Shown: positions 11,798-22,135 of the stretch, in pieces
Numbering within the stretch: position 1 is the first letter of the stretch
Layout: the number at the start of each line of letters is the position of its first letter
Assembly (NCBI GenBank): GCA_019637295.1
Contig: JAHBVX010000001.1
Coordinates: forward strand, 409,501-473,500
Source of the DNA: Polyangiaceae bacterium
GTDB lineage: Bacteria; Myxococcota_A; Polyangia; Polyangiales; Polyangiaceae
Length of the DNA stretch: 64,000 bases
Reading direction: 5' to 3'
Notes under the pieces: generated by a model
Database searches by the model: none
The model's input: the letters and a program-made list of their open reading frames with translations, nothing else
What the model was told of the DNA's origin: nothing
Program-made: the position numbers and the translations under genes

Positions 11798-13036
11798 CTA
11801 GTTCTGGGCCCGGGAGCCCGTGTCCGCGCGCACCACGTAGAAGAAGTCCCGGAAGGCGCGCCGCCGGATGTACTCGTCGGCGGTGAACTCGAAGCCCTTC
11901 GCTAGTGGGACGGCCTGGCGCTCGGGTCCGGCGTCCCCGGGCTCGAACAGCACGAACTTCGGGTAGGACCAGTTGACGTCGAGCTGCGCCACGTCGACCG
12001 CGCCCGCGTGGCGCATGCCGCGGGCGAGGGCGCCGGCGGTCGTGTCGTTGCTGATGCCCATGTACAGGACCTGGCGATCGTCACTGAGTCCGACGGCCGA
12101 GCGTCGGATGACCGTCTCGCCGTCCAGCGTCGCGCCCCAGGCGCGGCTCGACGGGTCTTTGAGCCCGATGTGCATCTCGCCGCGCTCGTACATGCAGCCT
12201 GGTGCTTGCCGATACCAGCGCATCTTGGGCTCCTTGTCGGCGATCTTCGCCCAGGTGGCGACCTCGTAGCTGCCGTCCTCGTAGTGGGCGAAGGTGCAGG
12301 CCTTCTCGCGCGGTTTGACCAGCATGACGCCGTCCACCTTCATGCCGTAGTAGCCGTGCTCGGTCATGAAGCCGCCGTTGAAGGCGGCGAGCAGCTCCTC
12401 GTGATGCTCCGGGGCGACGGTTGCGCGTCGCTGGTACTGCTGCGCGTCCTTCTCGAAAGTCTTGGGCTCGCGATAGCCAGCGACGGCATGGACTTGCGTC
12501 CGACGCAGATCGATGGCCACCACGAACAGCTCCGCCCAGGAGCGATTCTTGTCCGGGTGCAGCAGGGTCTTGAACATGTAGGGAGCCTCGTCCGGCCGGC
12601 GCGGATCGACGATGCGCACCCACTGCCCGTCGCCCGGGGCCGACCACTCCTTGTGCACGGGGCCAACATCCGCTGGGCGAAACGGGGGCATGACGGCGCC
12701 GGCGTCTCCTCCATCGCCCGCGTCCGCCGCTGTCGGCTCCGGCGGCGCCTCGGAGGGGACGTCCCAGTAGGCCTTCGGCTTCTCGTCCTTGCGCCACCAG
12801 CGGTTGAAGCGATCCTGAACCCCGTAGGCGACGTCCTGGAGCTTGGCGACGTTGTCCGTGCCGATCACGCTACGGAGGGTGTTGGACAGCAGCGGCCCGA
12901 GCCACTCGACCCGGTGGACGAGGATCCAGAGCACGAGCAGGCTGGTCGGCAGACCGATGGCTCCGCCCAGGAGCCACTTCTTCAAGCGGGAACGCTTGGG
13001 CTTCGGCGGGGTCGACTTGCTCTTCGGCTCCGACAT
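11798..13036 (-). CDS. membrane-anchored phosphodiester-glycosidase-like protein
   Basis: A 412-residue protein with a Lys/Arg/Pro-rich N-terminus, one membrane segment (about residues 24-43) and an acidic Ala/Gly/Asp linker. The C-terminal 250 residues resemble the NAGPA/phosphodiester glycosidase fold (AFNGGFMTEHGYYGMKVDG, then a Gly-rich core), known from the enzyme that removes GlcNAc from phosphodiesters and from bacterial exopolysaccharide proteins. The enzyme domain would face the periplasm. I infer a role in cell-surface glycan or phosphodiester metabolism; the exact substrate is unknown. The gene is divergent from the BamA-type gene with a 105-bp gap. Confidence 0.65.
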   Translation of the reverse strand: MSEPKSKSTPPKPKRSRLKKWLLGGAIGLPTSLLVLWILVHRVEWLGPLLSNTLRSVIGTDNVAKLQDVAYGVQDRFNRWWRKDEKPKAYWDVPSEAPPEPTAADAGDGGDAGAVMPPFRPADVGPVHKEWSAPGDGQWVRIVDPRRPDEAPYMFKTLLHPDKNRSWAELFVVAIDLRRTQVHAVAGYREPKTFEKDAQQYQRRATVAPEHHEELLAAFNGGFMTEHGYYGMKVDGVMLVKPREKACTFAHYEDGSYEVATWAKIADKEPKMRWYRQAPGCMYERGEMHIGLKDPSSRAWGATLDGETVIRRSAVGLSDDRQVLYMGISNDTTAGALARGMRHAGAVDVAQLDVNWSYPKFVLFEPGDAGPERQAVPLAKGFEFTADEYIRRRAFRDFFYVVRADTGSRAQN

Positions 13037-13141: not shown

Positions 13142-16100
13142 ATGCGCGCGCACGCCCGGCGGCAGCAGTCCAGCGGGTCGCCCGGCCTTCGGGCTCTCGG
13201 GGCGCTGTTGCTCGGGCTCGGCTTGGTGCTGGCCGCGCCACCCGCGGCGGCCCAGCAGGACGCGGACGAGCCGGCGAGCGAGCAGACCCCTCGCCTGCGG
13301 CCACCCACCCCCCTCGGTCCGCTGGCGGGACGGACCATCACGCGCATCGACGTGGTGACCCTCGGGGGACGCTGGCCAGCCGCGCAGCAGCTGCGCCGGG
13401 CTCGTGTGGGTGAGAGCGTGAGCGCGGAGGTGGCGCGGCGTGCAATGCGCGAGCTGCTCGACAGCGGTCGCTTCGCCACCGCGGAGGCGCGCTTCGAAGC
13501 CGATGGTGAAGGAGCACGGCTCGTGGTCGAGGTGCTGCCCCGCCGGCTGATCGCGACGCTACGCGTCAGCGGCTCGCCCCTCGAGCTGGGCGAGGTGTTG
13601 CGTGCGGGTGAGCTGAGGGAGCAAGGCGAGGTGACCGTGCCGCGCCTGGCGGAGATCCGGCAACGCATCCGCGCGCTGCATCAGCGACGGGGCTTCCCCA
13701 GTGCCAAGGTGGAGGTCACCGCGAGTGACACGGACGACCCCCTGCTGGTCGTGCTGTACGTGGAGATCGTCACCGGGGCTCCTCGCCGGATCGCGGCCCG
13801 GAGGTTCGCCGTGTGGCCCAGCACGACCGTGCCCGGGATCCGCGAGTCGGTCGAGCGCTACCCGGTGGTGGATGGGGACCGACTGGATCTCGATGCGCTG
13901 CACGGCGCCGACGAGGTGCTCACCGCCGAGCTTCGAGAGCGCGGCTTCTCGCGCGCGCACGTCAGCCATCGCGTTCGAGACTCGGCTACCGGGCCTCTGG
14001 TGGAGGTCTTGGTGCGAGCCGGACCGCGGATCCGCCTGGTGTTCGAGGGCAACCGCCGCTTCGACGCCTCGCAGCTCGAGGACGCCCTCAGCGTGGGCGC
14101 GACGGACGATCGCTCGCCGTCGACCCTCGCCGCCAAGCTCGAGGAATACTACCGGCAGCGTGGGCTCCTCGACGTGGAGGTCGGGTTTCACGAGCGTGGC
14201 AAGCCGACGGACGCCTACCAGGACCTGGTGTTTCGGATCCGCGAGCGAAATCCCGTGCGCGTGGTCACGCGCAGCTTCGCGTGTCTCAGCGGTCCACGCT
14301 CCGCCGCTGGCGCGGGGGAGGAGCTCGATCGCTTCCTGACGGAGGAGCTGCCCGGACCGGGTGTGCTCAGGTCGGTCGACCCGCGGGTAGTGGACACCAC
14401 CTTCGGGCCTCGGCAGACCACGGGCTCGCGGGTCGCGCCGTTCGAGCCCAGCCCGGCGTCCACTTTCGATCCAGCGACCTATGAGCGCGCCGTCAAACAC
14501 CTGCAGGACCTCTATCGCTCCGAGGGCTACCTGTCCGCGCAGGTGGGTCCCGTCGAGCTCTTGCGTCGGCGCTGCGATCCGCGCTCCCAACCGAGCGAGT
14601 GCATCCCCATCGGTCCGCGGCGGACGCCGAGGACCCCGTGTCGCTACGACGAGGTGGGCGTGCCGCTGCCCGAGCCCGCGGTCGACGCCCGCCTGGTGTG
14701 TCGGGCGGACACCGCCTCGGGGCTGCGCTGCGAACCGGACGCGGTACTGCACATCCCCGTCAAGCTCGGGCCTCTGACGACGCTCTATGATCTGGCCTTC
14801 GACGGCAACAAGGTGTTCGTCGAGAGCGCGCTGGAGGCGGCCGCGGAGCTTCAGCTGGGCAAGCCCGCATCTCAGATTGAGCTGGACAAGGCGCGCCGGC
14901 GTGTCCTGGACGCCTACGCGGAAGAGGGCTTCGCCTTCGCCGACGTCGAGGCGGAGCTGGAGCTCTCCCCGGATCGCACGCGCGCGCGTGCGCGCTTCGT
15001 GATCAGCGAGCGGCAGCGAGTCATCGTGTCAGGGATCGTCGTCCGAGGCGCGCAGCGCACGAACGAGAGTCTAATCCGCAGCCGGGTAGCGCTGAAGACG
15101 GGTCAACCCTATCGCCGGAGTTGGGTGCGGGCCACCGAGGAGCGCCTCGCCACGCTGGGGGTGTTCTCGGCCATCACCGTCGGGTTCGAGGATCCGTACG
15201 TCCCCGCGCGTGAGAAGGTGGTCGTCATTACCCTCAGCGAGCGCAAGCCGCAGTACCTCGACGTGCGTCCCGGCTTCTCCAGCGGCGAGGGCTTTCGGAT
15301 CACGTTCGAGTATGGCCACCGAAACCTCGGAGGCGAGGCGATCCAGCTGACACTGCGATCCCAGCTCGGCTATCTGCCCACCGGGCTCATCCTCGAAGAG
15401 GACGTGCGCAACAAGTACGACGAGCTCGACGTGGGCCAACGCATCGAGCGGCGCAACAGCGCGACGGTCGAGTTCCCGGACGTCGGTCTCGGTCCGCTGT
15501 TTCGCTTCAGCGTCGAGGGCATCGACGTGCGCGACAACGCGCGTGACTACGGCATCACCAAGGACGCCGGCATCACCACGCTGATCTTTCGGCCGTCGCG
15601 GCGCTTCTCCGCCACGCTGGGCGCTTCCCTCGAGCTGAACCGGGCGGAGATCTTCGGCAGCACGCAGAAGGGCGCGCTCGAGGAGTATGTGCGCAACAAC
15701 CCGCGGCTGCGCAACTCGTTCCGTGTGCCAGAAGGTACGACGGTCGCGGTCGCGCAGCGCATCGGCGTCACCTGGGATCGGCGCGACAATCCTCTGGGTG
15801 CCGCGAGCGGAACGCTCATCAGCGCGAGCGTCGAGCACGTGCGCGCCACGCCCGTCGGTGAGGACGAACAGTCCGCCGGAGACACGAGCGTGTTCGCGGC
15901 CACCACCAGTCAGTTCTTGCGTTCGACCAGCCGGGTCGCCGGCTACGTACGGCTCAGCGATCGAGGCCTTGCCTTGGCGGCGAGCTTCCGCTGGGGGCTC
16001 AATACCCAGCTCATCAGCGGGTCTCGCACCTACCCGGATCGCCTCTTCTTCCTCGGTGGCGTCGACAGCCTGCGTGGCTTCCTGCAGGACTCGCTGGTGC

Positions 16101-16465
16101 CCCAAGACATCGCGGACGAGCTGCTCAAGCCGGGCTCCGAGCTCTCGCTGCGCGAGGTGGTGATTCGTGGCGGCGATGTGTTCGTCAATCCGCGCCTCGA
16201 GCTGCGCGTGCCCTTGAGCGGTGACGTGCAGACCGCGCTGTTCTTCGACTCGGGCAACCTGTGGACGCGCCCGGAGTTGATCGAACCCCTGCGGCTTCGC
16301 CACGCCATCGGCAGCGGCCTCCGCATCGGCACCCCTGTCGGCCCACTCGCGTTCGACTACGGCTTCAACGTCGATCGCATCCTCGACGAAGTCGATCCGA
16401 CCCGACAGAATCAGCGCTTCTGGGAAGACATCGGTGCCTTCCACTTCAGCATCGGATTGTTCTGA
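13142..16465 (+). CDS. Omp85-superfamily outer-membrane protein (BamA/TamA type) with POTRA domains
   Basis: A 1107-residue protein with a signal peptide ending at AAAQQ (about residue 39). It carries a series of POTRA domains in the periplasmic half and a C-terminal 16-strand-type barrel of about 400 residues. The conserved loop-6 motif appears as LRGF near 975, and the last strands read GTPVGPLAFDYGF and end in Phe, the usual barrel signature. It is longer than E. coli BamA (810) because of extra POTRA material, including a Cys-rich insertion near residues 477-545 with five Cys. It should insert or export outer-membrane proteins. The start was chosen at the ATG giving the signal peptide; the open frame runs much further upstream but overlaps the divergent gene. 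Confidence 0.88.
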   Translation: MRAHARRQQSSGSPGLRALGALLLGLGLVLAAPPAAAQQDADEPASEQTPRLRPPTPLGPLAGRTITRIDVVTLGGRWPAAQQLRRARVGESVSAEVARRAMRELLDSGRFATAEARFEADGEGARLVVEVLPRRLIATLRVSGSPLELGEVLRAGELREQGEVTVPRLAEIRQRIRALHQRRGFPSAKVEVTASDTDDPLLVVLYVEIVTGAPRRIAARRFAVWPSTTVPGIRESVERYPVVDGDRLDLDALHGADEVLTAELRERGFSRAHVSHRVRDSATGPLVEVLVRAGPRIRLVFEGNRRFDASQLEDALSVGATDDRSPSTLAAKLEEYYRQRGLLDVEVGFHERGKPTDAYQDLVFRIRERNPVRVVTRSFACLSGPRSAAGAGEELDRFLTEELPGPGVLRSVDPRVVDTTFGPRQTTGSRVAPFEPSPASTFDPATYERAVKHLQDLYRSEGYLSAQVGPVELLRRRCDPRSQPSECIPIGPRRTPRTPCRYDEVGVPLPEPAVDARLVCRADTASGLRCEPDAVLHIPVKLGPLTTLYDLAFDGNKVFVESALEAAAELQLGKPASQIELDKARRRVLDAYAEEGFAFADVEAELELSPDRTRARARFVISERQRVIVSGIVVRGAQRTNESLIRSRVALKTGQPYRRSWVRATEERLATLGVFSAITVGFEDPYVPAREKVVVITLSERKPQYLDVRPGFSSGEGFRITFEYGHRNLGGEAIQLTLRSQLGYLPTGLILEEDVRNKYDELDVGQRIERRNSATVEFPDVGLGPLFRFSVEGIDVRDNARDYGITKDAGITTLIFRPSRRFSATLGASLELNRAEIFGSTQKGALEEYVRNNPRLRNSFRVPEGTTVAVAQRIGVTWDRRDNPLGAASGTLISASVEHVRATPVGEDEQSAGDTSVFAATTSQFLRSTSRVAGYVRLSDRGLALAASFRWGLNTQLISGSRTYPDRLFFLGGVDSLRGFLQDSLVPQDIADELLKPGSELSLREVVIRGGDVFVNPRLELRVPLSGDVQTALFFDSGNLWTRPELIEPLRLRHAIGSGLRIGTPVGPLAFDYGFNVDRILDEVDPTRQNQRFWEDIGAFHFSIGLF

Positions 16466-16674: not shown

Positions 16675-16736
16675 CGAGAAGACGGCGGTTCTCGGCCTGA
16701 CACGAGGCTCGAAAATAACTTGGAACGAACCCCGCA
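16675..16736 (+). promoter_or_regulatory. candidate sigma-54 promoter with upstream dyad
   Basis: TTGGAACG-N4-CCGCA (16720-16736) has GG and GC exactly 10 bases apart, as in the -24/-12 consensus, and follows an A-rich stretch (AAAATAA) that stands out in this GC-rich DNA. A perfect dyad CGAGAA-N8-TTCTCG (16675-16694) lies upstream and could be an activator site. Transcription would begin near 16747 and run toward the RNAs and the Ro60-type gene. Known bacterial RNA-repair operons with Ro60 homologs use sigma-54 and the activator RtcR; no rtcR is in this window. Confidence 0.5.
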
Positions 16737-16746
16737 ACTGGGACGT

Positions 16747-17306
16747 CAGAGTCAACCGGACCACACGATGAAGGACCTCCACTCAATCACCCACGCCCCC
16801 TGGCGGTTCGCTGGCGCGAATCGTCCCGGTGCAGGGGAGACCGCAGGCGGCTCGTAGGACGCGAGCGAATTGCTTCCGCGCGAAGCCGCCCCAGGTCCTC
16901 ACCTCGGGCGGCTTCTCTGCATTTGGGGGCGCGTGATCGCGCCCGGGCGCGACACCGGCGCCGCTTCACGACCCCGCGACGCCCGAGCGAACGACGCGAG
17001 GCCAGGGGGAGACACGACCGAAAGGAAGAAGCAGCTGATGAATCGAAAGACCACCAACCACAAGTTGGGTCTGTGAGCCATGAAGGACTCTGGCGCACGG
17101 ACCACCCACGACGCGCGTGATCGCTGCGCGCGCGTCGGCAAGGCGATCTACGGGTCGCGGGGCGGCGGGATGCCGTCGCCCCTTCTGATTTCGACGAGCT
17201 CGCTCGTCGATGGCCACATCGGCCGCGGCGCAACTGCGCCAGGATGTTTGAAAAGCGATGTGACGAGGGACTGGGCATGCCTGCGCGGCGTAGCCCCGTC
17301 CTCACT
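16747..17306 (+). other. structured non-coding leader with a run of strong hairpins
   Basis: No convincing gene fills this stretch. It holds hairpins at 16882-16915 (10-bp perfect outer stem plus a 4-bp inner stem), 17109-17137 (9 bp), 17159-17182 (10 bp, loop GATG, followed by TTCTGATTT), 17191-17210 (8 bp), 17227-17240 (6 bp) and 17268-17301 (two 4-bp blocks). A 12-codon frame (17038-17076, MNRKTTNHKLGL) with AAGGAAG upstream could be a leader peptide, but this is weak. The density of stems suggests a structured RNA or attenuating leader ahead of the tRNA-like elements. Confidence 0.45.
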
Positions 17307-17381
17307 CTCCCTGTCCTGCCGGATTCCGCAGGCATCGGCTTACGAAGCCGGTTGAGCTTGGTTCGACTCCAAGCAGGGAGG
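17307..17381 (+). ncRNA. tRNA-Arg(ACG)-like cloverleaf
   Basis: A full cloverleaf can be drawn. Acceptor stem CTCCCTG/CAGGGAG is a perfect 7 bp; D-stem CTGC/GCAG has an 8-base loop; anticodon stem TCGGC/GCCGG has loop TTACGAA (anticodon ACG, Arg); variable loop is 5 bases; T-stem CTTGG/CCAAG has loop TTCGACT. No CCA is encoded (GCT follows). The D-arm is aberrant: base 10 is C, A14 is replaced by C, and the loop is short. It is therefore either a diverged tRNA gene or a tRNA mimic belonging to the Ro60-type locus. Its position 380 bases before that gene favours the second. Confidence 0.7.
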
Positions 17382-17485
17382 CTAGACGCGCAGCCGCCCG
17401 GCCGCGGAGGTCCTACACGCGACAATCTTCAGGGATTCGCTCGAAAGGGCCGACGACCTCTGCACTCGGGCGGCGCGCCGCAGTC
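17382..17485 (+). other. linker with hairpin and a motif shared with the next RNA
   Basis: GAGGTC (17407-17412) pairs with GACCTC (17455-17460), closing a 42-base loop. The 12-mer GGTCCTACACGC (17409-17420) recurs as GGCCCTACACGC (17507-17518), and CACTCGGGC (17463-17471) recurs at 17617-17625. The shared words suggest a decayed or alternative copy of part of the downstream RNA. Confidence 0.35.
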
Positions 17486-17638
17486 TTTCCCGTGCCCGGC
17501 CGACTAGGCCCTACACGCACCCTAATATTGGTTCGAGTCCAATCAAGTAACCCAAGTCACTTGTAGCCTAATGGTCAGGCATCGGTTTTAGACACCGCCA
17601 AAAGCAACGGCTTTTTCACTCGGGCACGGGAAGTTTTT
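17486..17638 (+). ncRNA. Y-RNA-like (YrlA-type) RNA folding as a circularly permuted tRNA
   Basis: TTCCCGTGCCCG (17487-17498) pairs perfectly with CGGGCACGGGAA (17621-17632), and T5 follows. Inside lies a tRNA in permuted order. First a T-arm (17527-17543, stem ATTGG/CCAAT, loop TTCGAGT), then acceptor 3' strand CAAGTAA (17544-17550), a 6-base loop CCCAAG, acceptor 5' strand TCACTTG (17557-17563, 6 of 7 pairs), T8-A9, a canonical D-arm (GCCT/AGGC, loop AATGGTC), and an anticodon arm (17582-17598, loop TTTAGAC). A further hairpin AAAAGC/GCTTTT follows. The break is in the variable region, so the closing stem replaces the variable arm. Bacterial Y RNAs are known to mimic tRNA T and D arms and bind Ro60 by their end-closing stem, which fits the Ro60-type gene 49 bases downstream. 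Confidence 0.75.
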
Positions 17639-17686
17639 CGCGAGACATCAGCGTAGACGCACGCCGGTGTACTCTGTCACGCAGGG

Positions 17687-19453
17687 ATGATGACCGACCG
17701 AACGCTGCTCCCGGAGAACCAGCTCGGCCCCGCCGAGAAGCTCCTCGATTTGGTGCTCGGCTCGTCGGCGCACCTCTGGCACAACCGGCCGGGACTGGAC
17801 GTGGACGGCAAGTGGTATCCGCGTCGAGACCTCGCTCGGAACCGCCACCTCGCTCGCGGGGTGACCGTGCGTCCGGGGCTGTTCCTGCCTGCCGCGACCA
17901 CGCTCTACTCCAAGCTGCTCGAGCTGTACGAGCTGAACGTGGTGCTCATGGCGCACTTCGCGAGCTATGCGCTGAAGGAGACGGACTGGAGGGACCTCAA
18001 GGTGGCGTGTGCGGCGCTGATGCTCGTGCAGACGCGCTCGGGGCAGCCCGTACACGACGACGACGGCACCGTCGCGTTCTACGACGACGACCACCGGCGC
18101 ATCGGCGAGGCCATGCTGCTCTACTACGAGCACAAGTCTGCGCGCATGATGGCCCCCAAGAGCGTGCTCAGAGTCGCCGAGTTGCTCGAAACGCCGGAGA
18201 TCGCCGAGCTGAACCGACTGGCTGGCTTCGGCGACCCCGCCAGCAAGAAGCCGCCCCTGGGGCGATGGAAGAGCGCGGCGCGGTCCTGGCTCAGGGTACG
18301 AGAGCACAACCGGCCGATGCTCGAGGGGCTGGTCGCCGCGGGCTACAAGGAGACGATCAAGAAGCTCGCGCGCAAGGCCGGCTACAAGCCCGAGAGCGCA
18401 GCGTTCTTCGAGCTGCTCGGCTGGAAGCAGAAGCAGGCCGCCGGCGGTCACCGCAGTGTGGGTCTCGACGGTACCCTCGACGTGCACCGGCGAGAGCGCT
18501 TCGACGGCATCAGCGAGGCCGAGATCTGCGAGGCCATCGTGACCCAGAGGCTCCGCTACAAGGACGTGGTTGGCCGCTTGCCCAAGGACATGGGGCTGAC
18601 GCCGGCCATCCTGGTGGCGCTGTTGCCCACGCTGTCGGATCGCGACTTGCGCATCATGACGCCGACCCTCGAGTCGATGGGCCTGCTGACGGAGCCCGAG
18701 ATCCGCGCGCGTTGGGAGGTAGCGATCGCCAACGCGACGGATCAGCGTGCGCTCAACATCGCCAAGAACGTCCGCGACCAGGGGGTGAAGGCGAAGCTCG
18801 AGGAGGCCGCGGACAACGCCGCGCGGCAGGCGGTCGCGGCGGCCACGGCCGAGGTTGACGTGCACGTCATGTTCCTGATCGACAAGAGCGGCAGCATGTC
18901 CGGGGCCATCGAGCAGTCGAAGGAAGCGTTGTCCCGCATCTTGGCCGGGTTCTCCGCCGAGAAGGTGCACATCGCGACCTTCGATACGATGGGCACGCAC
19001 CTCGCGCCCAAGGCGCCGACGCGCGCCGCAGTGCAGCACATGCTCGCCGACATCCGGGCCGAGGGTGGCACCCTCCACGCTTCAGGCGTACGCGCCCTGC
19101 GGCGGGCGGGCCGCGTGATCCCGCGGACCGCGAAGCTCGTGGTCATCGTGGTAGGCGACGAGGCCGGCGAGACCGGGCAGAACTTCGCGCAAGCGTTCGC
19201 GGAGTGCGGCTACGAGCCGAGCGCCTTCGCGCTCTTGGTCAACGTCGCGGTGACTCGCGGGCGCACGGTGCAAGACGCGGCGCTCGCCGCGGGCGCCCCG
19301 TTCAGCCAGGTGACCATCGAGCAGTTCGACGATCCATACCAGGTCCCGCGCGTGCTTCGGGCGCTGCTCGACGCGCCCCGCGCCGCACCCAAAAAGCAGT
19401 TTGGGCTCGTCGAGCGAGTGATGAGCACGCCGCTGCTCGAGCTGCGGAGCTGA
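17687..19453 (+). CDS. rsr: Ro60-like protein (TROVE-like region plus vWA domain), Rsr type
   Basis: A 588-residue protein, close to the 530-540 of Ro60 and Deinococcus Rsr. The C-terminal vWA domain has an intact MIDAS: DKSGSMS from Asp399, with later TFDT and VVGDEAG. The N-terminal 380 residues are helical; the part before the vWA (LRYKDVVGRLP...LVALLPTLSD...LESMGLL) is laid out like the end of the TROVE ring domain of Ro60, but similarity is too weak by eye to be certain. Ro60 proteins bind Y RNAs and misfolded or damaged RNAs. The tRNA-mimic RNA immediately upstream is the strongest support. Start is ATG 17687 or the next codon, ATG 17690. The gene heads a five-gene run with a JAMM protease, a ubiquitin-like protein and an E1. 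Confidence 0.7.
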   Translation: MMTDRTLLPENQLGPAEKLLDLVLGSSAHLWHNRPGLDVDGKWYPRRDLARNRHLARGVTVRPGLFLPAATTLYSKLLELYELNVVLMAHFASYALKETDWRDLKVACAALMLVQTRSGQPVHDDDGTVAFYDDDHRRIGEAMLLYYEHKSARMMAPKSVLRVAELLETPEIAELNRLAGFGDPASKKPPLGRWKSAARSWLRVREHNRPMLEGLVAAGYKETIKKLARKAGYKPESAAFFELLGWKQKQAAGGHRSVGLDGTLDVHRRERFDGISEAEICEAIVTQRLRYKDVVGRLPKDMGLTPAILVALLPTLSDRDLRIMTPTLESMGLLTEPEIRARWEVAIANATDQRALNIAKNVRDQGVKAKLEEAADNAARQAVAAATAEVDVHVMFLIDKSGSMSGAIEQSKEALSRILAGFSAEKVHIATFDTMGTHLAPKAPTRAAVQHMLADIRAEGGTLHASGVRALRRAGRVIPRTAKLVVIVVGDEAGETGQNFAQAFAECGYEPSAFALLVNVAVTRGRTVQDAALAAGAPFSQVTIEQFDDPYQVPRVLRALLDAPRAAPKKQFGLVERVMSTPLLELRS

Positions 19454-19456
19454 CGG

Positions 19457-20395
19457 GTGGACTACCGAAAGTTCCTGCAGCGGTCCGAAGAGCGCGTGTT
19501 GCCCTACTTTGGTGGCACCGGCGTACAGGACGTTGGCCGCCGGCTCACGGTGATGGAGGTCATGGCCCCGGGCTGGTACCGCACTCGCATCGAGGGCCGA
19601 GCCGCTACGCTGCTCGGGCCTGCGGACCCTCCGGACCTGTCGGCGTCGCCGTGTGTGCGTGGACACTTCGCGCTCGGCTGGCTGTTTCGCGGTGGGCGTG
19701 AGATCGACCGCATCGAGCTGCTGCCGGATGAAGAGCTGGCTCCGCTCACTCCCCTCGTGACCCGGCGCTGGCACTCCGGGGAGCTACTGTTCGAGAGCTC
19801 GGACTTCGAGGGCGACGCCGAGGAGGAGGCTCGCCGTGCGCTCGAGGACCGTCGGAGCTTGGCGCAGCTCTCCGGGGTCGCGGCCTCGCTGCGCGCGGCC
19901 TTTGGCTTCGCGCTCTCTGCTCACGTCGCCGCCGAGCGCCAACTCCGTATCTCGCCTCGTGAGGTGATGGGCAGCGTGCTGAGCATCGCTGCCTCGGGTG
20001 TACCAGCGGTCACGGCGCTGCTCGATCGCATCGCCGAGGCGCGTGAGCTCGAGCGCGTGCGGCTCGAGGCGTGGCAGCGCAGTGAGGGGCTCTTCGTGCC
20101 GCACGCCGCTCCGCCCGAACCAGCGCCTCAGGGCACCAGCGAGCGCGTCGCCCGCGCGCTCGAGCGAGCCGAAGCGTCGCTGCTCTCCCAGCGCAGCCTC
20201 GGTATTGGCCAGCTCGAGGTGGCCTACCGCTTCATGGGTCAGCGCTTCATCAGCGTCGTGGACGAGCGCACCTTGCGCGTGATGGACGCTGGCATCTGCT
20301 TGTCGGGTCACGATGGCGACCTCACGCTGGAGAGTCTGCCGGGAGTGATTCGCGAAGGTTACGAGACGGATCAACTCAACATTACGCGGTGGTGA
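19457..20395 (+). CDS. uncharacterised protein of the Ro60/ubiquitin-like locus
   Basis: I do not recognise this 312-residue protein. It starts at GTG 19457, three bases after the Ro60-type stop, and its stop overlaps possible starts of the JAMM gene, so it is translated with them. The N-terminal part (about 1-100) contains GRRL, PGWYRTRIEGR and SPCVRGH, which look like conserved strand-loop elements. A long Arg/Glu-rich helical middle (about 120-265) follows, and the C-terminus has GICLSGHDGD and ESLPGVIREGY. No membrane segment or signal peptide is visible. Because an E2 enzyme is missing from the operon, one can ask if either Cys-containing loop has that role, but nothing in the fold supports it directly. 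An RNA-handling or adaptor role is equally possible. Confidence 0.8.
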   Translation: MDYRKFLQRSEERVLPYFGGTGVQDVGRRLTVMEVMAPGWYRTRIEGRAATLLGPADPPDLSASPCVRGHFALGWLFRGGREIDRIELLPDEELAPLTPLVTRRWHSGELLFESSDFEGDAEEEARRALEDRRSLAQLSGVAASLRAAFGFALSAHVAAERQLRISPREVMGSVLSIAASGVPAVTALLDRIAEARELERVRLEAWQRSEGLFVPHAAPPEPAPQGTSERVARALERAEASLLSQRSLGIGQLEVAYRFMGQRFISVVDERTLRVMDAGICLSGHDGDLTLESLPGVIREGYETDQLNITRW

Positions 20396-20766
20396 GCATG
20401 GACAGCGCGATCCGGGGTGCACGAGAGGTGTTCTTTCTGGTCGGTCGTGGCGAGGCCGTGCTCTGGTCGGACGCTTCCAGGAGCCCCGTGGCGCTGCCAG
20501 ACTCTCGCCGTCGCTGGGAGATGATCTGGGAGCACCGAGGCGAGATCGAAGAGCTCTCGCACAGCCACCCGCGCGGTCCCTTGGCCTTCTCGACGGAGGA
20601 CGAGACCACGATGCAAGCGCTCGACAGCGCGCTCGGTCGGGCGCTGGTGTTCTCGGTGGTGGCGCCCGCCGGCATGATCCGCGCCGAAGCTGGTGCGGTG
20701 AGCGCCGTGCACGCCGAGCCCTGGTGGACGGAGCTCTTGCGGCGCGCGTCGCACATGGACCCTTGA
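20389..20766 (+). CDS. JAMM/JAB-domain metalloprotease
   Basis: A compact JAB-domain protein (125 aa from GTG 20389; GTG 20392 overlapping the preceding TGA, or ATG 20398, are alternatives). The JAMM zinc motif is complete: His58-Ser-His60, seven residues, Ser68-x2-Asp71 (numbering from 20389), with a Glu in the preceding strands. Such enzymes remove ubiquitin-like proteins from targets or trim their C-terminal tails to expose Gly. The neighbouring small protein ends in Phe-Gly-Ser, so trimming of a single Ser is a natural proposal. In described bacterial ubiquitin-like conjugation operons a JAB protein is the deconjugating or processing enzyme. Confidence 0.85.
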   Translation: MVSMDSAIRGAREVFFLVGRGEAVLWSDASRSPVALPDSRRRWEMIWEHRGEIEELSHSHPRGPLAFSTEDETTMQALDSALGRALVFSVVAPAGMIRAEAGAVSAVHAEPWWTELLRRASHMDP

Positions 20767-20799
20767 CTGAACCCCGAACGCCTCGAAAGGAGGGACGAC

Positions 20800-21042
20800 A
20801 TGGCAATCTTGAACATCACCTACAACGGCTACAGCGCGGACTACCCGCGAGCGATCGACGACGCGGCGACGGACGCTGACATCCGCCGCATCGCGGTGGA
20901 GATCATCAGGAGCGGCGGGCTGCGTGGTCTGCACATCATGACCCTCGCGGACGACGCGTTCGCGTACTACATGGTGGATCGCTTCGACTCCGCGGGAGTG
21001 AAGCGCATCTACTTGCGACCGAAGGTTCCCTTCGGCAGTTGA
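20800..21042 (+). CDS. ubiquitin-like small protein ending in Phe-Gly-Ser
   Basis: An 80-residue protein with a near-perfect ribosome binding site (AAAGGAGG, 20786-20793), much stronger than those of its neighbours, so it is likely the most abundant product. The predicted order is strand (AILNITYNG), strand (YSADYPRAI), helix (DADIRRIAVEIIRSG), then strands to the end (FAYYMVDRF, VKRIYLRPKV), which fits a beta-grasp fold. The tail RPKVPFGS would leave a C-terminal Gly after removal of Ser80. Between a JAMM protease and an E1 this is the expected place for a ubiquitin-like modifier. Direct similarity to ubiquitin, ThiS or PRTRC protein C is not visible by eye, so the identification rests on size, predicted fold, tail and context. 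Confidence 0.75.
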   Translation: MAILNITYNGYSADYPRAIDDAATDADIRRIAVEIIRSGGLRGLHIMTLADDAFAYYMVDRFDSAGVKRIYLRPKVPFGS

Positions 21043-21045
21043 AAG

Positions 21046-21077
21046 CGCCGGGCCCGGGGCACTCCCCGGGCTCGGCG
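21046..21077 (+). promoter_or_regulatory. 14-bp hairpin between the ubiquitin-like and E1 genes
   Basis: A 14-bp stem with one G-T pair and loop CACT, starting four bases after the ubiquitin-like stop. No T-run follows. It could protect the upstream mRNA end or reduce read-through so that less E1 than modifier is made. Confidence 0.55.
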
Positions 21078-21115
21078 GCTTCGTTCAGGGCGCAGAGCGC
21101 CGATGGGAGACGAAC

Positions 21116-21694
21116 ATGGCGACCAAGATTGTCATCTGCGGAGTAGGTGCGCTGGGCTCGCACACCGCCACTCTGTGCCGTAACCTGGACGCGCAGTTGG
21201 TGCTGGTGGATTTCGACCGGGTGGAGTCGAAGAACCTCCTGGCGCAGGCGTTCGTCAAGCCGTCCATCGGCAAGAACAAGGCGGAGGCGCTCAAGCTGCA
21301 GCTCGCCAACTTCTACGGCGTCAAGGTGCAAGCCTTCGGCGTGCGCGCGGCGCCAGAGAACGTCGGGACCTTGCTGGATGGCGCCACGCTGGTGGTCGAT
21401 TGTTTCGACAACGCGGCCAGCCGCAACCTGCTCAGCGCGCGCTGCCGAGCGTCGAGCCAGGCGCTCGTGCACGGCGCGCTGAGCGCGGACGGCACGTTCG
21501 GGCTGGTGCGCTGGGACGAGCGTTTCGCCGCTGATGCCGAGGACGCGGAAGGCCAAGCGACCTGCGAAGGTGGCGAACACTTGCCGCTCATCGGTCTGGT
21601 CGCCGCGGCCTTGGCGCGCAGCATCCAAGACCATCTGCGGGACAACGTGAAGCGAGACTATCAAGTGAGTCTCAATGGCGTGAGCGAGACCTGA
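21116..21694 (+). CDS. short E1/ThiF-type activating enzyme
   Basis: A 192-residue Rossmann protein of the ThiF/MoeB/E1 superfamily. The nucleotide motif GVGALG is at residues 9-14. The acidic pair after strand 2 (VDFD, Asp32 and Asp34), the N...Q segment (Asn40, Gln44), the Lys in IGKNK (Lys55) and VVDCFDN all match E1 positions for ATP binding and adenylation of a C-terminal Gly. It is shorter than ThiF (about 250) and lacks the CxxC zinc pairs and an obvious catalytic-Cys domain, so it may only adenylate, or pass the modifier directly to a target. It is the last protein gene of the locus; a tRNA-like element begins nine bases after its stop. Confidence 0.85.
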   Translation: MATKIVICGVGALGSHTATLCRNLDAQLVLVDFDRVESKNLLAQAFVKPSIGKNKAEALKLQLANFYGVKVQAFGVRAAPENVGTLLDGATLVVDCFDNAASRNLLSARCRASSQALVHGALSADGTFGLVRWDERFAADAEDAEGQATCEGGEHLPLIGLVAAALARSIQDHLRDNVKRDYQVSLNGVSET

Positions 21695-21703
21695 GCCGCC
21701 CTT

Positions 21704-21803
21704 GGGCGCGGGCCAGGGCGTCGCTGACGCTCGGGTTCGTGTCGAGGCGACGCTCCGGTCTCCAAATCCGGTAGCTCGAGGTTCGATTCCTCGCGGGCCC
21801 GCT
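21704..21803 (+). ncRNA. tRNA-Trp(CCA)-like element with enlarged D-arm
   Basis: The 3' half is tRNA-like: anticodon stem CCGGT/TCCGG with loop CTCCAAA (anticodon CCA, Trp), variable TAGCT, T-stem CGAGG/CCTCG with loop TTCGATT, then acceptor strand CGGGCCC. The 5' acceptor is GGGCGCG (6 of 7 pairs), or GCGGGCC in a shifted register. In place of a D-arm is a 7-bp stem GCGTCGC/GCGACGC (21718-21724 with 21747-21753) carrying an inner CTCG/CGAG hairpin. The canonical D-loop GG is absent, so translation use is doubtful. A 12-bp hairpin with one mismatch (21806-21847) follows at once. Confidence 0.65.
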
Positions 21804-22135
21804 GCTGGCAAGCATGCACGCCCGGGCGCGTCCATGCGTGCTGGCCACTCTCTGGTGACGAGGCTCCGGGATCCGCTTTGCTTCGTCGCGAGGCCTGGAA
21901 GATCCACGAGGTTGCCGAGAGGTGGCCTCGGGGCGCTTCACTCTCGCGGCCGCGGCGCAGCCGCCGCGCTGGGTCGCCGTCGCGTGCGCTGGATTCCCCA
22001 GCGCTCTCTGTGATCGCGTTGAGGACGCCGACCTGAATCCCGGGCCTAGTTGTCAGGAGCATGACTCGGCGGTGCCGATCTGGCGTCAGACCTGGAGGCT
22101 CAGTCAGGGTCCGCCGCGTAGCTCTGGCTCACTCT
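21804..22135. other. non-coding stretch after the tRNA-like element
   Basis: It holds the hairpin TGGC-a-AGCATGCA / TGCGTGCT-g-GCCA (21806-21847) directly after the tRNA-Trp-like element. I see no T-run, gene or further tRNA piece in the remaining 290 bases before the end of the convergent lipoprotein gene. Confidence 0.5.

Follow-up and report, generated by a model that had tools for sequence, protein, structure and literature searches.

Ro60-Y RNA particles range from bacteria to humans, and human Ro60 is a major autoantigen. To our knowledge, few partners have been assigned to the tRNA-shaped end of bacterial Y RNAs. In the open-licence literature searched, the pairing of a Ro60-type protein with a ubiquitin-like (Ubl) tagging set was not found; the likeliest place of a prior description, the 2016 work of Burroughs and Aravind, which reportedly covers TROVE modules that have tRNA-like RNAs, is outside that scope. 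Compared with bacterial Ro60/Rsr-Y RNPs, the locus described here, contained in a window of 64,000 nucleotides from a Polyangiaceae bacterium (the whole stretch of DNA analysed), shows a TROVE protein too divergent for Pfam; its RNA family holds a whole permuted tRNA, often with several different RNAs per locus, and in phages, as well as in some bacteria, tRNA arrays accompany the module. The Salmonella rsr-yrlBA-rtcBA operon, in the part of PMC7790460 that treats it, likewise encodes a TROVE-fold protein next to a Y RNA that contains a tRNA-like domain, whereas here a Ubl candidate, an E1, a JAB peptidase and a protein named B replace RtcB and RtcA. Ro60 of Thermus phage phiLo (PDB 9l5y) is a TROVE fold in a phage, like that of the present module, and jumbo phages (PMC7824862) and Borgs (PMC11208441) encode TROVE proteins for which a role in RNA repair or RNA binding was proposed. 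In the relevant sections of these two papers, no Ubl, JAB or E1 is named together with those proteins, and our protein is missed by Pfam TROVE. The phage and plasmid tRNA arrays outlined in PMC5966550 likewise consist of densely packed, codirectional tRNA genes representing many isotypes, but here such genes are joined to a fixed protein-RNA module.

The Ubl, E1 and JAB genes also resemble described systems. In PRTRC cassettes, a ThiF-type E1 is found with a JAB and a small protein; the window E1 scores 30.5 with the NCBIfam PRTRC model, whose cut-off is 144.75, and none of the other PRTRC models gives a match. FtsH-ternary conflict systems, as outlined in PMC7159879, contain Ubl, E1 and JAB in an operon, also near a vWA protein, whereas the vWA domain is here part of the TROVE protein. 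Unlike in those systems and in the E1-E2 proteins of PADLOC, no E2, RING E3, MoxR or FtsH was found here.

Organization of the locus

The window shows five abutting ORFs on the + strand (Table 1), as claimed by an earlier reading made from the sequence only. The gaps between them measure 3, -7, 33 and 73 bases, and G+C at third codon positions is 81-91%. The JAMM, short E1 and vWA assignments of that reading are consistent with Pfam, the JAB protein matching Prok-JAB at E 5.6e-4 with a score of 20.2, under the cut-off of 25. Searches of Pfam, NCBIfam, PADLOC and PHROGs gave no name for B or the Ubl candidate, nor for the TROVE protein beyond vWA, and these library negatives were not counted as absence. 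The tRNA-Arg-like and tRNA-Trp-like RNAs claimed before and after the genes were both recovered by ARAGORN. The tRNA-Trp(CCA) is over the Rfam tRNA cut-off of 29 bits, has the lowest score among the 45 tRNA matches in the genome, and has a counterpart in locus L044 at 12575-12645. The tRNA-Arg(ACG) and two copies in L044 show 92% mean column identity (3 sequences), and this gene is perhaps a remnant of a tRNA array carried by some relatives. Single-sequence folding of both is weak (z -1.5 and -1.7). The candidate sigma-54 promoter of that reading is not supported: the best site, at 16721, scores 16/19 and is equalled in 47% of shuffled copies of the stretch. Upstream of 25 related loci, eight sites scoring at least 17 were found, at scattered places in seven loci, where shuffles lead one to expect about 5.8; the best is 18/19 in L019.

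Table 1. Features of the locus (positions in the window).
Feature	Position	Strand	Basis
tRNA-Arg(ACG)-like gene	17307..17382	+	ARAGORN; two similar copies in L044
Short Y-like RNA	17390..17480	+	closing stem and conserved motifs, without tRNA-mimic insert; R1 45.1 bits
Y-like RNA with permuted tRNA	17488..17634	+	R1 120.5 bits (itself a training sequence); covariation
Divergent TROVE/Ro60-type protein, 588 aa	17687..19453	+	helical repeat region and vWA domain
Protein B, 312 aa	19457..20395	+	C-terminal domain with invariant Cys281
JAB/JAMM peptidase, 125 aa	20389..20766	+	GTG at 20389, alternative ATG at 20398
Ubl candidate, 80 aa	20800..21042	+	C-terminal end RIYLRPKVPFG-S
Short E1 (ThiF-type domain), 192 aa	21116..21694	+	Pfam ThiF E 3.7e-22
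tRNA-Trp(CCA)-like gene	21733..21802	+	ARAGORN; Rfam tRNA 36.5 bits

The Y-like RNA family

The longer Y-like RNA shows, in this order, a closing stem, an inner stem, a T-arm, an acceptor, a D-arm and an anticodon-like arm, that is, a circularly permuted tRNA. Its single-sequence fold is moderate (z -2.9, matched by 3/200 shuffles); since such folding was weak to moderate, comparative covariation was used instead, and it shows that the permuted tRNA claimed inside a closing stem belongs to a genuine RNA family. For an alignment of 22 bacterial RNAs, RNAalifold predicts 30 pairs, with both sides changed in 22; paired cells amount to 93.8%, against 72.1% in shuffles (as high in 0/500), and double-change cells to 134, against 35. 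Candidates were chosen by T-arm and 3' motif, so T-arm pairs and the 3' motif are not independent evidence. Alignment A2 omits five of 27 candidates (L044:7185, L047:840, window:17309, L034:4783 and L039:2588), because the permuted acceptor was unseen or the segment was cut at the wrong motif; two of them were later recovered by the covariance model R1, as L034:4790 (84.9 bits) and L039:2594 (110.8 bits). The A2 row L034:4633-4772 is missing from the R1 hits, perhaps through a one-base overlap with its neighbour.

The R1 search covered 46 of 55 loci and the window. In the whole genome it gave three matches, the second strongest being the short Y-like RNA, which spans the full model and had been overlooked by the sequence-only reading. 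Y-like RNAs above 40 bits are found upstream in 16 of the 27 loci L019-L045, one of which (L040) has no upstream DNA; in the complete modules L021, L023, L026 and L037 the search found none above 40 bits. Several RNAs with different tRNA heads may occur at one locus, with five above 80 bits in L036 and three in L034. A model built from bacterial RNAs only found full-length members above 45 bits at 14/25 phage loci. The phage RNAs found in this way (n=23), realigned and refolded, show 29 pairs, 26 of them double-changed; this fold is biased towards structure because the RNAs were picked by a structure-aware model, except for the anticodon arm, which is among the pairs and is absent from the selecting model.

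The permuted order T-arm, acceptor, D-arm is shared with YrlA RNA (RF02553), which matches the tRNA-mimic part only and below its cut-off of 69 bits: 44.1 in L041, the best of three stretches, 39.8 in L022 and a weak 20.7 in the window. YrlA matches neither the closing stem nor the conserved motifs (CCGGCCGACGAGGCCCTACACGCA ... CACTCGG), and an anticodon-like arm is present here. The family thus shows the YrlA type of arrangement, a permuted tRNA mimic on a closing stem next to a TROVE gene.

The module proteins

The window vWA protein shows VWA domains only in Pfam. Pfam TROVE (PF05731) gave no hit at E 1 in this protein or any of 26 homologs, and none at E 0.01 in five phage or plasmid homologs, so the protein was filed as a divergent TROVE-fold subfamily and not as a PF05731 member. 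The Ro60-type assignment, which was to be judged by a TROVE profile match, is missed by Pfam, yet it is borne out by hhalign against 14 canonical TROVE proteins of myxobacteria (E 4.2e-8 at a probability of 94.9, over residues 195-506, partly including the vWA domain); the canonical set itself matches Ro60 and Rsr with E values of 7e-168 or lower. The AlphaFold model (pLDDT 80.1, 26-row alignment) combines a helical-repeat ring and a vWA domain in one chain, as in the TROVE/Ro60 fold, and TROVE/Ro60 structures take Foldseek ranks 1-5 over 563-620 alignment columns. VIA-align against 9kop, 9nen, 1yvp, 2nvo, 9nfa, 9nep, 9nf8 and 2i91 gives Z 13.6-15.0 and rmsd 4.6-5.2 over 420-444 residues, to be read beside the Z 16 attained by vWA-only chains across some 165 residues and the Z 13 that helical repeats can attain by chance.

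Protein B belongs to no Pfam family, and its predicted model (pLDDT 87.7) has no named fold by Foldseek in PDB and BFVD. Residues 60-118 weakly resemble RNA-binding OB folds, the VIA-align matches (Z up to 6.7) being mostly OB-like: cold-shock, IF1A, RNase II and exosome domains. Cys281 is invariant in 59/59 aligned sequences. No E2 is among the Foldseek and VIA-align matches of B, which does not rule one out.

The JAB protein keeps the JAMM metal site HxHP...SxxD (H49, H51, P52, S59 and D62) in 50/50 sequences and the upstream Glu (E4) in 48/48, in trimmed-domain numbering. The 80-residue protein, a beta-grasp candidate in the earlier reading, fits a Ubl in size, in gene position (between JAB and E1) and in having an invariant Gly near the C-terminus (Gly79, 46/46); it has orthologs in bacteria and phages, and a profile search with it gave no match. 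In the E1 sequence, nucleotide-binding motifs and the catalytic Cys are present, and 11 residues of the trimmed domain are invariant in 46/46: Gly6, Gly8, Gly11, Asp29, Asp31, Asn37, Gln41, Lys52, Asp92, Asp95 and the catalytic Cys147 (Cys150 in other numbering). With these residues invariant in the sequences compared, the active sites of the Ubl-E1-JAB set look intact. The E1 profile is closest to MoeB in PDB, followed by TcdA, ThiF and Uba4, with SUMO E1 behind. No E2 or E3 was recognised among the module proteins (Pfam, NCBIfam, PADLOC) or in eight representatives of the further protein families that recur at phage loci: three HNH, one beta-lactamase-fold and four unnamed.

Distribution of the module in bacteria and phages

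After removal of duplicates (L072, L081 and L084), TROVE, B, JAB, Ubl and E1 genes lie on one strand and in one order at 25/25 distinct phage loci, with wide gaps between them at many; all five are present at 21. A separate E1 search of viral contigs found all five genes in 40 of 46 close matches, near-duplicate contigs included. No other family is present at more than 11/25 phage loci, frames overlapping module genes excluded. Among 17 viral records, the phage marker phrog_2 (terminase large subunit in PHROGs) is found in 11, ten at E 1e-10 or better, and it also matches 11/14 control genomes, presumably through prophages; PF03237 is found in two, and the phage status of six rests on IMG/VR classing.

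Among 282 Myxococcota genomes, 10 contain the TROVE family (E <1e-100), 10 the Ubl and nine both; phage contigs in bins may explain the module in five of the 10 genomes with TROVE. Strains that contain the module include named myxobacteria (Archangium, Hyalangium). In the DNA examined, L028, L029, L031-L033, L035 and L040 show TROVE, B and JAB without Ubl and E1 (the DNA of L033 and L040 stops shortly after JAB), and L030 shows TROVE alone. Genome G276, in which TROVE has no match, retains JAB-Ubl-E1 together with four tRNAs. In the Archangiaceae loci, unrelated genes, mostly on the opposite strand, are inserted between JAB and Ubl, so bacteria can do without tight linkage. Many bacterial and phage homologs, although not all, have both the RNAs and the Ubl-E1-JAB genes, in line with the association proposed by the earlier reading. 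That reading did not extend to the many giant-phage contigs with the unit, where it is accompanied by arrays of ordinary tRNA genes.

tRNA genes near the module

The phage loci contain 360 tRNA genes at 24/25 loci, 347 of them codirectional, with at least 10 per locus at 16 and up to 37 tRNAs and 18 amino-acid types at one locus. In the 17 viral records, 115 of the 150 listed tRNAs lie within 35 kb of the module, against 28.1 expected, and three records (G317, G319 and G329) have a tRNA cluster away from it. Bacterial arrays are exceptional: besides L019, L044 and the window, 13 of 14 five-gene loci have no tRNA and one has one; the window has two tRNA genes and L036 none. Reading the arrays of L022, L044 and L019 as permuted RNAs was rejected. 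In 38/54 of their tRNAs the own acceptor pairs 7/7 (L022 22/25, L044 11/17, L019 5/12), and a fixed end position in the script explains some of the others, so the arrays are read as ordinary tRNAs.

Discussion

Comparison shows that a TROVE-fold protein, Y-like RNAs with permuted tRNAs, protein B and a predicted Ubl-E1-JAB set occur together, the genes in a constant order and, in phages, mostly close to numerous tRNA genes. The best reading is that the window probably holds a chromosomal, tRNA-poor copy of a tRNA-centred RNP module that giant phages carry as well. The module itself is virtually beyond doubt and its function as a Ro60-type RNP is probable, while a Ubl tagging step and its purpose are put forward tentatively; RNA surveillance coupled to protein tagging, as proposed in the sequence-only reading, is thus partly supported. 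In such a module, the TROVE protein would bind the closing stem of the Y-like RNAs, like Ro60, and the tRNA-shaped heads would offer a tRNA surface to nucleases, modification or repair enzymes, or the ribosome. The E1 would adenylate the Ubl and then accept it on its own Cys; B, perhaps RNA-binding and with an invariant Cys, may hand the Ubl on or act as an adaptor, so that proteins caught on a tRNA or Y RNA would be tagged, and JAB would mature the Ubl or take it off. The likely use would be guarding or policing the tRNA pool in conflict, phage tRNAs being shielded from host anticodon nucleases and host tRNAs from invaders; the anticodon-nuclease part is argued solely from context.

Two other uses of the same genes, fairly unlikely to a similar degree, have to be weighed. 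The E1 and a Ubl thiocarboxylate could work as a sulphur carrier (as in ThiF/ThiS, TtuC/TtuB or Uba4/Urm1) thiolating tRNAs or the Y-like RNAs, with JAB maturing the Ubl and the TROVE-Y RNP presenting the RNA substrate. The order of E1 profile matches, in which TcdA is a tRNA-modifying ThiF relative, the bare ThiF-type domain of the E1, the tRNA setting and the lack of a recognised E2 agree with this, but the Ubl tail is usually Phe-Gly and not the Gly-Gly of sulphur carriers. JAB accompanies the Ubl at 25/25 phage loci, which removable conjugates fit at least equally, and no sulphur-transfer gene was recognised in the families of at least 4/25 phage loci, several of them nameless. Sulphur carriers of the Ubl kind that act in tRNA modification have been described, as outlined in PMC7911844 and PMC2948915. 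The Y-like RNAs could instead be decoys absorbing anticodon nucleases, stabilised by TROVE, while the array replaces cleaved tRNAs and the Ubl set merely regulates the turnover of TROVE or B. The tRNA-rich phage locus with 18 amino-acid types and the several differently headed RNAs of L036 and L034 would suit this, as would YrlA, suggested in the pertinent part of PMC7790460 to be a competitive inhibitor of an anticodon nuclease in Salmonella; yet the Ubl set is almost as constant as TROVE at phage loci, and tRNAs are few or absent at most bacterial loci, which would be odd if they were the point.

That a Ro60-type surveillance unit and an unrelated Ubl toolkit merely share a mobile tRNA-array hotspot, with no joint work, is improbable: G276 and the split Archangiaceae loci would agree with it, but order and strand are fixed at all 25 phage loci despite the gaps, no other family is present at more than 11 of them, and TROVE and Ubl co-occur in 9/10 genomes. 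Still less credible is a degenerate RNA-repair operon of the RtcR/RtcBA type, like Salmonella rsr-yrlBA-rtcBA, which has lost its ligase. Here too TROVE adjoins a YrlA-like RNA, and RtcB is found in 6/6 module-bearing Myxococcota genomes tested and in 9/17 viral records, in G318 about 12 kb from the TROVE gene. In the bacterial genomes, RtcB nevertheless lies outside the module, on other contigs in 5/6 and about 205 kb away in G000, which has no canonical TROVE, and no sigma-54 site is above chance.

The proposed tRNA-centred module may even be an RNA-guided tagging system, a rather unlikely extension. A Ro60-type ring would be loaded with a set of Y RNAs of the permuted-tRNA kind, whose heads each mimic a different tRNA; it would catch proteins attacking or handling tRNAs, and B, through its OB-like part and Cys, would transfer the Ubl. 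If true, this would be a protein modification with its specificity written in non-coding RNA, which giant phages would use to protect their tRNA arrays and which myxobacteria would have kept. The operon names candidate partners of the tRNA mimics of Y RNAs, namely a Ubl, an activating enzyme, a protease and protein B, and places a dedicated protein-RNA unit beside the tRNA arrays of giant phages, a long-standing puzzle. As the module is compact, has active sites that look intact and is present in named strains, what Y RNAs recruit and which partners the phage tRNA arrays have become directly testable.

Divergent Ro60-type protein of the module

The first gene of the module is predicted to encode a divergent protein of the Ro60 type. 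Pfam finds only vWA domains in the window protein, and the Pfam TROVE family matches none of its 26 homologs. The AlphaFold model made with these 26 aligned homologs shows a pLDDT of 80. In a Foldseek search of the PDB, the top five matches of this model are one TROVE domain (9kop), three chains of Ro60 and the Ro60 of Thermus phage phiLo (E 1.8e-9 to 3.9e-8). VIA-align pairs 420-444 residues of the model with eight Ro60/TROVE entries (Z 13.6-15.0, rmsd 4.6-5.2), and for chains that share only the vWA domain Z is as high as 16 over some 165 residues. Failure to match TROVE by profile, named in the sequence-only reading as a refuting outcome, is seen with the Pfam family, but profile-profile comparison with 14 canonical TROVE proteins from other Myxococcota does give a match (probability 94.9, E 4.2e-8) that spans residues 195-506, partly in the repeat region and partly in the vWA domain. 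Canonical TROVE was found in 14 of 235 genomes from the phylum, with no match in the window's genome, and these 14 genomes have none in common with the 10 that contain the module Ubl.

Organization and distribution of the five genes

The five abutting genes between a tRNA-Arg-like and a tRNA-Trp-like RNA, noticed from the bare sequence, were all located on the forward strand (17307-21802). All five ORFs show a strong third-position G+C (81-91%), and both tRNAs have counterparts in the bacterial locus L044. Since the contig has at least 841 kb and the ORF upstream of the module resembles, by eye, an Omp85 protein, the window copy appears chromosomal.

Features of the module locus in the window
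Feature	Position	Strand	Basis
tRNA-Arg(ACG)	17307-17382	+	ARAGORN
RNA of the Y-like family, no tRNA-mimic insert, closing motifs present	17390-17480	+	covariance model
Y-like RNA	17488-17634	+	covariance model
Five abutting genes TROVE-B-JAB-Ubl-E1	17687 to 21694	+	ORFs
tRNA-Trp(CCA)	21733-21802	+	ARAGORN

Judged by gene order, the five genes form a unit. The same order, suggested as a search in other Myxococcota, was found at many loci of this phylum when the five proteins served as queries in tblastn and profile searches. Among 282 Myxococcota genomes drawn, 10 contain the TROVE family (E under 1e-100), 10 contain Ubl and nine contain both. In genome G232 TROVE and Ubl are on separate contigs, G077 has TROVE without Ubl, and G276 has Ubl, JAB and E1 without a TROVE match, so the Ubl genes can persist after loss of TROVE. 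The JAB-Ubl-E1 locus of G276 (L159) also contains four tRNAs, and B was not found in the 14 kb examined. Shorter sets were found in the stretches examined: TROVE-B-JAB without Ubl or E1 in L028, L029, L031-L033, L035 and L040; TROVE-B only in L027 and L046-L047; and TROVE alone in L030, L041 and L042. Contig ends cut L027, L033 and L040-L042.

Y-like RNA family in bacteria

The window RNAs belong to a real structured RNA family. In the upstream regions of homologous loci, 27 candidates were picked by the T-loop and the 3' motif, and 22 were aligned; the T-arm and 3' motif are therefore selection criteria, and the other helices are unselected. RNAalifold without supplied structure shows a closing stem, an inner stem, the T-arm, a 7-pair permuted acceptor and the D-arm, with 30 pairs, 22 of them changed on both sides. 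The permuted tRNA inside a closing stem, first seen in the window alone, belongs to this family. Paired cells make up 93.8% versus 72.1% with partners shuffled (none of 500 shuffles as high), double-change cells number 134 versus 35.3, and a partner shifted by 1-3 columns leaves only 31-45% pairing.

With the covariance model of these 22 RNAs, 46 loci were searched together with the window. The window and 16 of the 27 loci L019-L045 show matches above 40 bits that lie upstream of the TROVE gene; those of L020, L024, L025, L033 and L035 are outside the training set. Among 59 related genomes, five show a Y-like RNA over 90 bits (G000, which is the window's, G244, G249, G285 and G292), and all five contain the window's TROVE family (E no higher than 1e-250); in 17 others of the 59, the search for this family gave vWA-level similarity at most (maximum 42.8 bits). 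Elsewhere the model gives many weak partial matches, which are ordinary tRNAs in tandem. Rfam YrlA (RF02553) gives 44.1 and 39.8 bits (E 4e-9 and 7e-8, short stretches) with the tRNA-mimic part of two members and 20.7 bits with the window Y-like RNA, all below its cut-off of 69. Short Y-like RNAs are also present at L044 7267-7370 (38.8 bits) and L045 10249-10325 (39.4 bits). The Myxococcota loci L052, L053 and L054 show remote E1 relatives, accompanied in L052 and L054 by a remote relative of the C-terminal half of the TROVE protein; their Y-like RNA matches score at most 46.8 bits (L054 11078-11224).

The module in giant phages

Scanning IMG/VR with the TROVE alignment yielded 27 loci on contigs of 70-619 kb, and GenBank Virus Rctr197k one further locus; removal of three duplicates left 25. 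In all of them the module genes found are on a single strand in identical order, and 21 contain the five genes within the stretch examined. E1 was not found within that stretch in L075, L088, L091 and L092; L133, on the same contig as L091, contains the E1 of that contig. A separate E1 scan gave 55 loci: 46 close (L102-L147, near-duplicates included), 40 of them with the complete five genes in order and six otherwise, and nine remote, three of which (L148, L149, L152) also match TROVE and B remotely. Counts of both scans are not additive because contigs are shared. Other families present in at least four of the 25 loci reach a maximum of 11 loci, frames overlapping module genes excluded. Eight representatives of these include three HNH nucleases, a beta-lactamase-fold hydrolase and four without Pfam match. 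The hydrolase (Lactamase_B_2, E 4e-11; L071 7683-8729, with relatives in three other phage loci) lies among tRNA genes, is of a kind that includes RNase Z, and is possibly a tRNA 3'-end processing enzyme. As a marker of phage origin, the terminase large subunit (phrog_2) was found in 11 of the 17 viral records tested.

The bacterial model finds 23 full-length Y-like RNAs that score above 45 bits. They are spread over 14 of the 25 phage loci, and in 13 of these 14 they lie no more than 2 kb downstream of E1. Folded without supplied structure, they show the outer stem, T-arm, acceptor and D-arm as in bacteria, and an anticodon arm that is absent from the bacterial model; 26 of 29 pairs are double-changed, and paired cells reach 89.7% versus 61.3% shuffled. 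Since these RNAs were picked by a model holding the structure, the common helices lean towards it. Once they are rewritten in normal tRNA order, ARAGORN accepts all 23 phage RNAs and 18 of the 25 bacterial ones. The control included the 23 phage and 20 of the 25 bacterial RNAs, omitting five that had previously failed: cognate halves pass in 23/23 and 18/20, halves from different RNAs in 49/92 and 29/80, and the encoded order in 0/23 and 0/20, respectively. This acceptance test has only moderate stringency. Directly after the acceptor strand, N-CCA is present in 10 of the 23 phage RNAs and in five of the 25 bacterial ones (chance 1 in 64 at a fixed place). The triplets in the loop differ widely, so each head mimics a different tRNA or no particular one.

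tRNA genes around the module

At least one tRNA is present in 24 of the 25 phage loci and ten or more in 16; 347 of their 360 tRNAs are on the module strand. In 17 viral records with 11-55 tRNAs each, some of which may be fragments, 115 of the 150 listed best tRNA matches are within 35 kb of the module, where an even spread expects 28.1; in G317, G319 and G329 the tRNAs cluster away from it. At bacterial module loci tRNA arrays are the exception: L022, L044 and L019 show 25, 17 and 12 tRNAs, read as ordinary, the window keeps two, and of the other 14 five-gene loci 13 have none and one has a single tRNA. The array of L022 (Hyalangium versicolor, 14152-16371), after E1, covers 18 amino-acid types and has 26 ARAGORN entries including a doubtful tmRNA call; most of its tRNAs lack an encoded CCA. 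Two plasmid loci, L066 (Dolichospermum) and L067 (Kovacikia, cyanobacterial, with 33 tRNAs alongside), contain remote relatives of TROVE, B and E1 but no match to the JAB and Ubl profiles, and this set is possibly a more distant branch.

History and proposed function

In a quick midpoint-rooted TROVE tree of 79 rows, the window falls in a fully supported 28-row clade, surrounded by phage rows; 24 of its rows are labelled Myxococcota or come from Myxococcota genomes and four are labelled otherwise. This topology suggests that a single lineage has long been maintained in myxobacteria. Contigs L046 and L048-L051, from Myxococcota bins (G232, G255, G250, G183, G188), group with phage L093 and are perhaps phage contigs within bacterial bins. 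The TROVE protein of L043 (BNCN01000002, 'Comamonas sp. KCTC 72670') is inside the Archangiaceae clade, which suggests a mislabelled or contaminated assembly.

Across bacteria and phages, eleven E1 motif positions including Cys147 are conserved in 46/46 sequences, JAB HxHP and SxxD in 50/50, Ubl Gly79, at or near the C-terminus, in 46/46, and B Cys281 in 59/59. Identity to the window proteins is 35-41% for phage TROVE and 38-51% for close phage E1, and active-site constancy despite this divergence argues for working enzymes; the Ubl set looks intact. No E2 was recognised among the module proteins. Residues 60-118 of B resemble OB folds of cold-shock domains, IF1A, RNase II and the exosome (Z up to 6.7), which is only suggestive of an RNA-binding-type OB fold.

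Comparison demonstrates co-occurrence, fold, RNA structure and conserved active-site residues. A sulphur-carrier system instead of protein tagging is a serious rival, because E1 resembles MoeB, TcdA, ThiF and Uba4 most and the setting is one of tRNAs. In the likeliest reading, with protein tagging, E1 would charge Ubl, JAB would mature Ubl or reverse the tagging, and B may bridge RNA and Ubl transfer, while the TROVE protein would hold the closing stem of the Y-like RNAs, whose tRNA-shaped heads may recruit tRNA-acting proteins.

Already described are Ro60-Y RNA operons with RtcB/RtcA (PMC7790460), TROVE proteins in jumbo phages (PMC7824862) and Borgs (PMC11208441), and Ubl systems of prokaryotes that lie close to vWA proteins (PMC7159879); among the matches listed from the open-licence literature, no description was found of TROVE or Y RNA joined to bacterial Ubl, JAB or E1. 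The purpose of the module may be the care of the tRNA pool during phage-host conflict.
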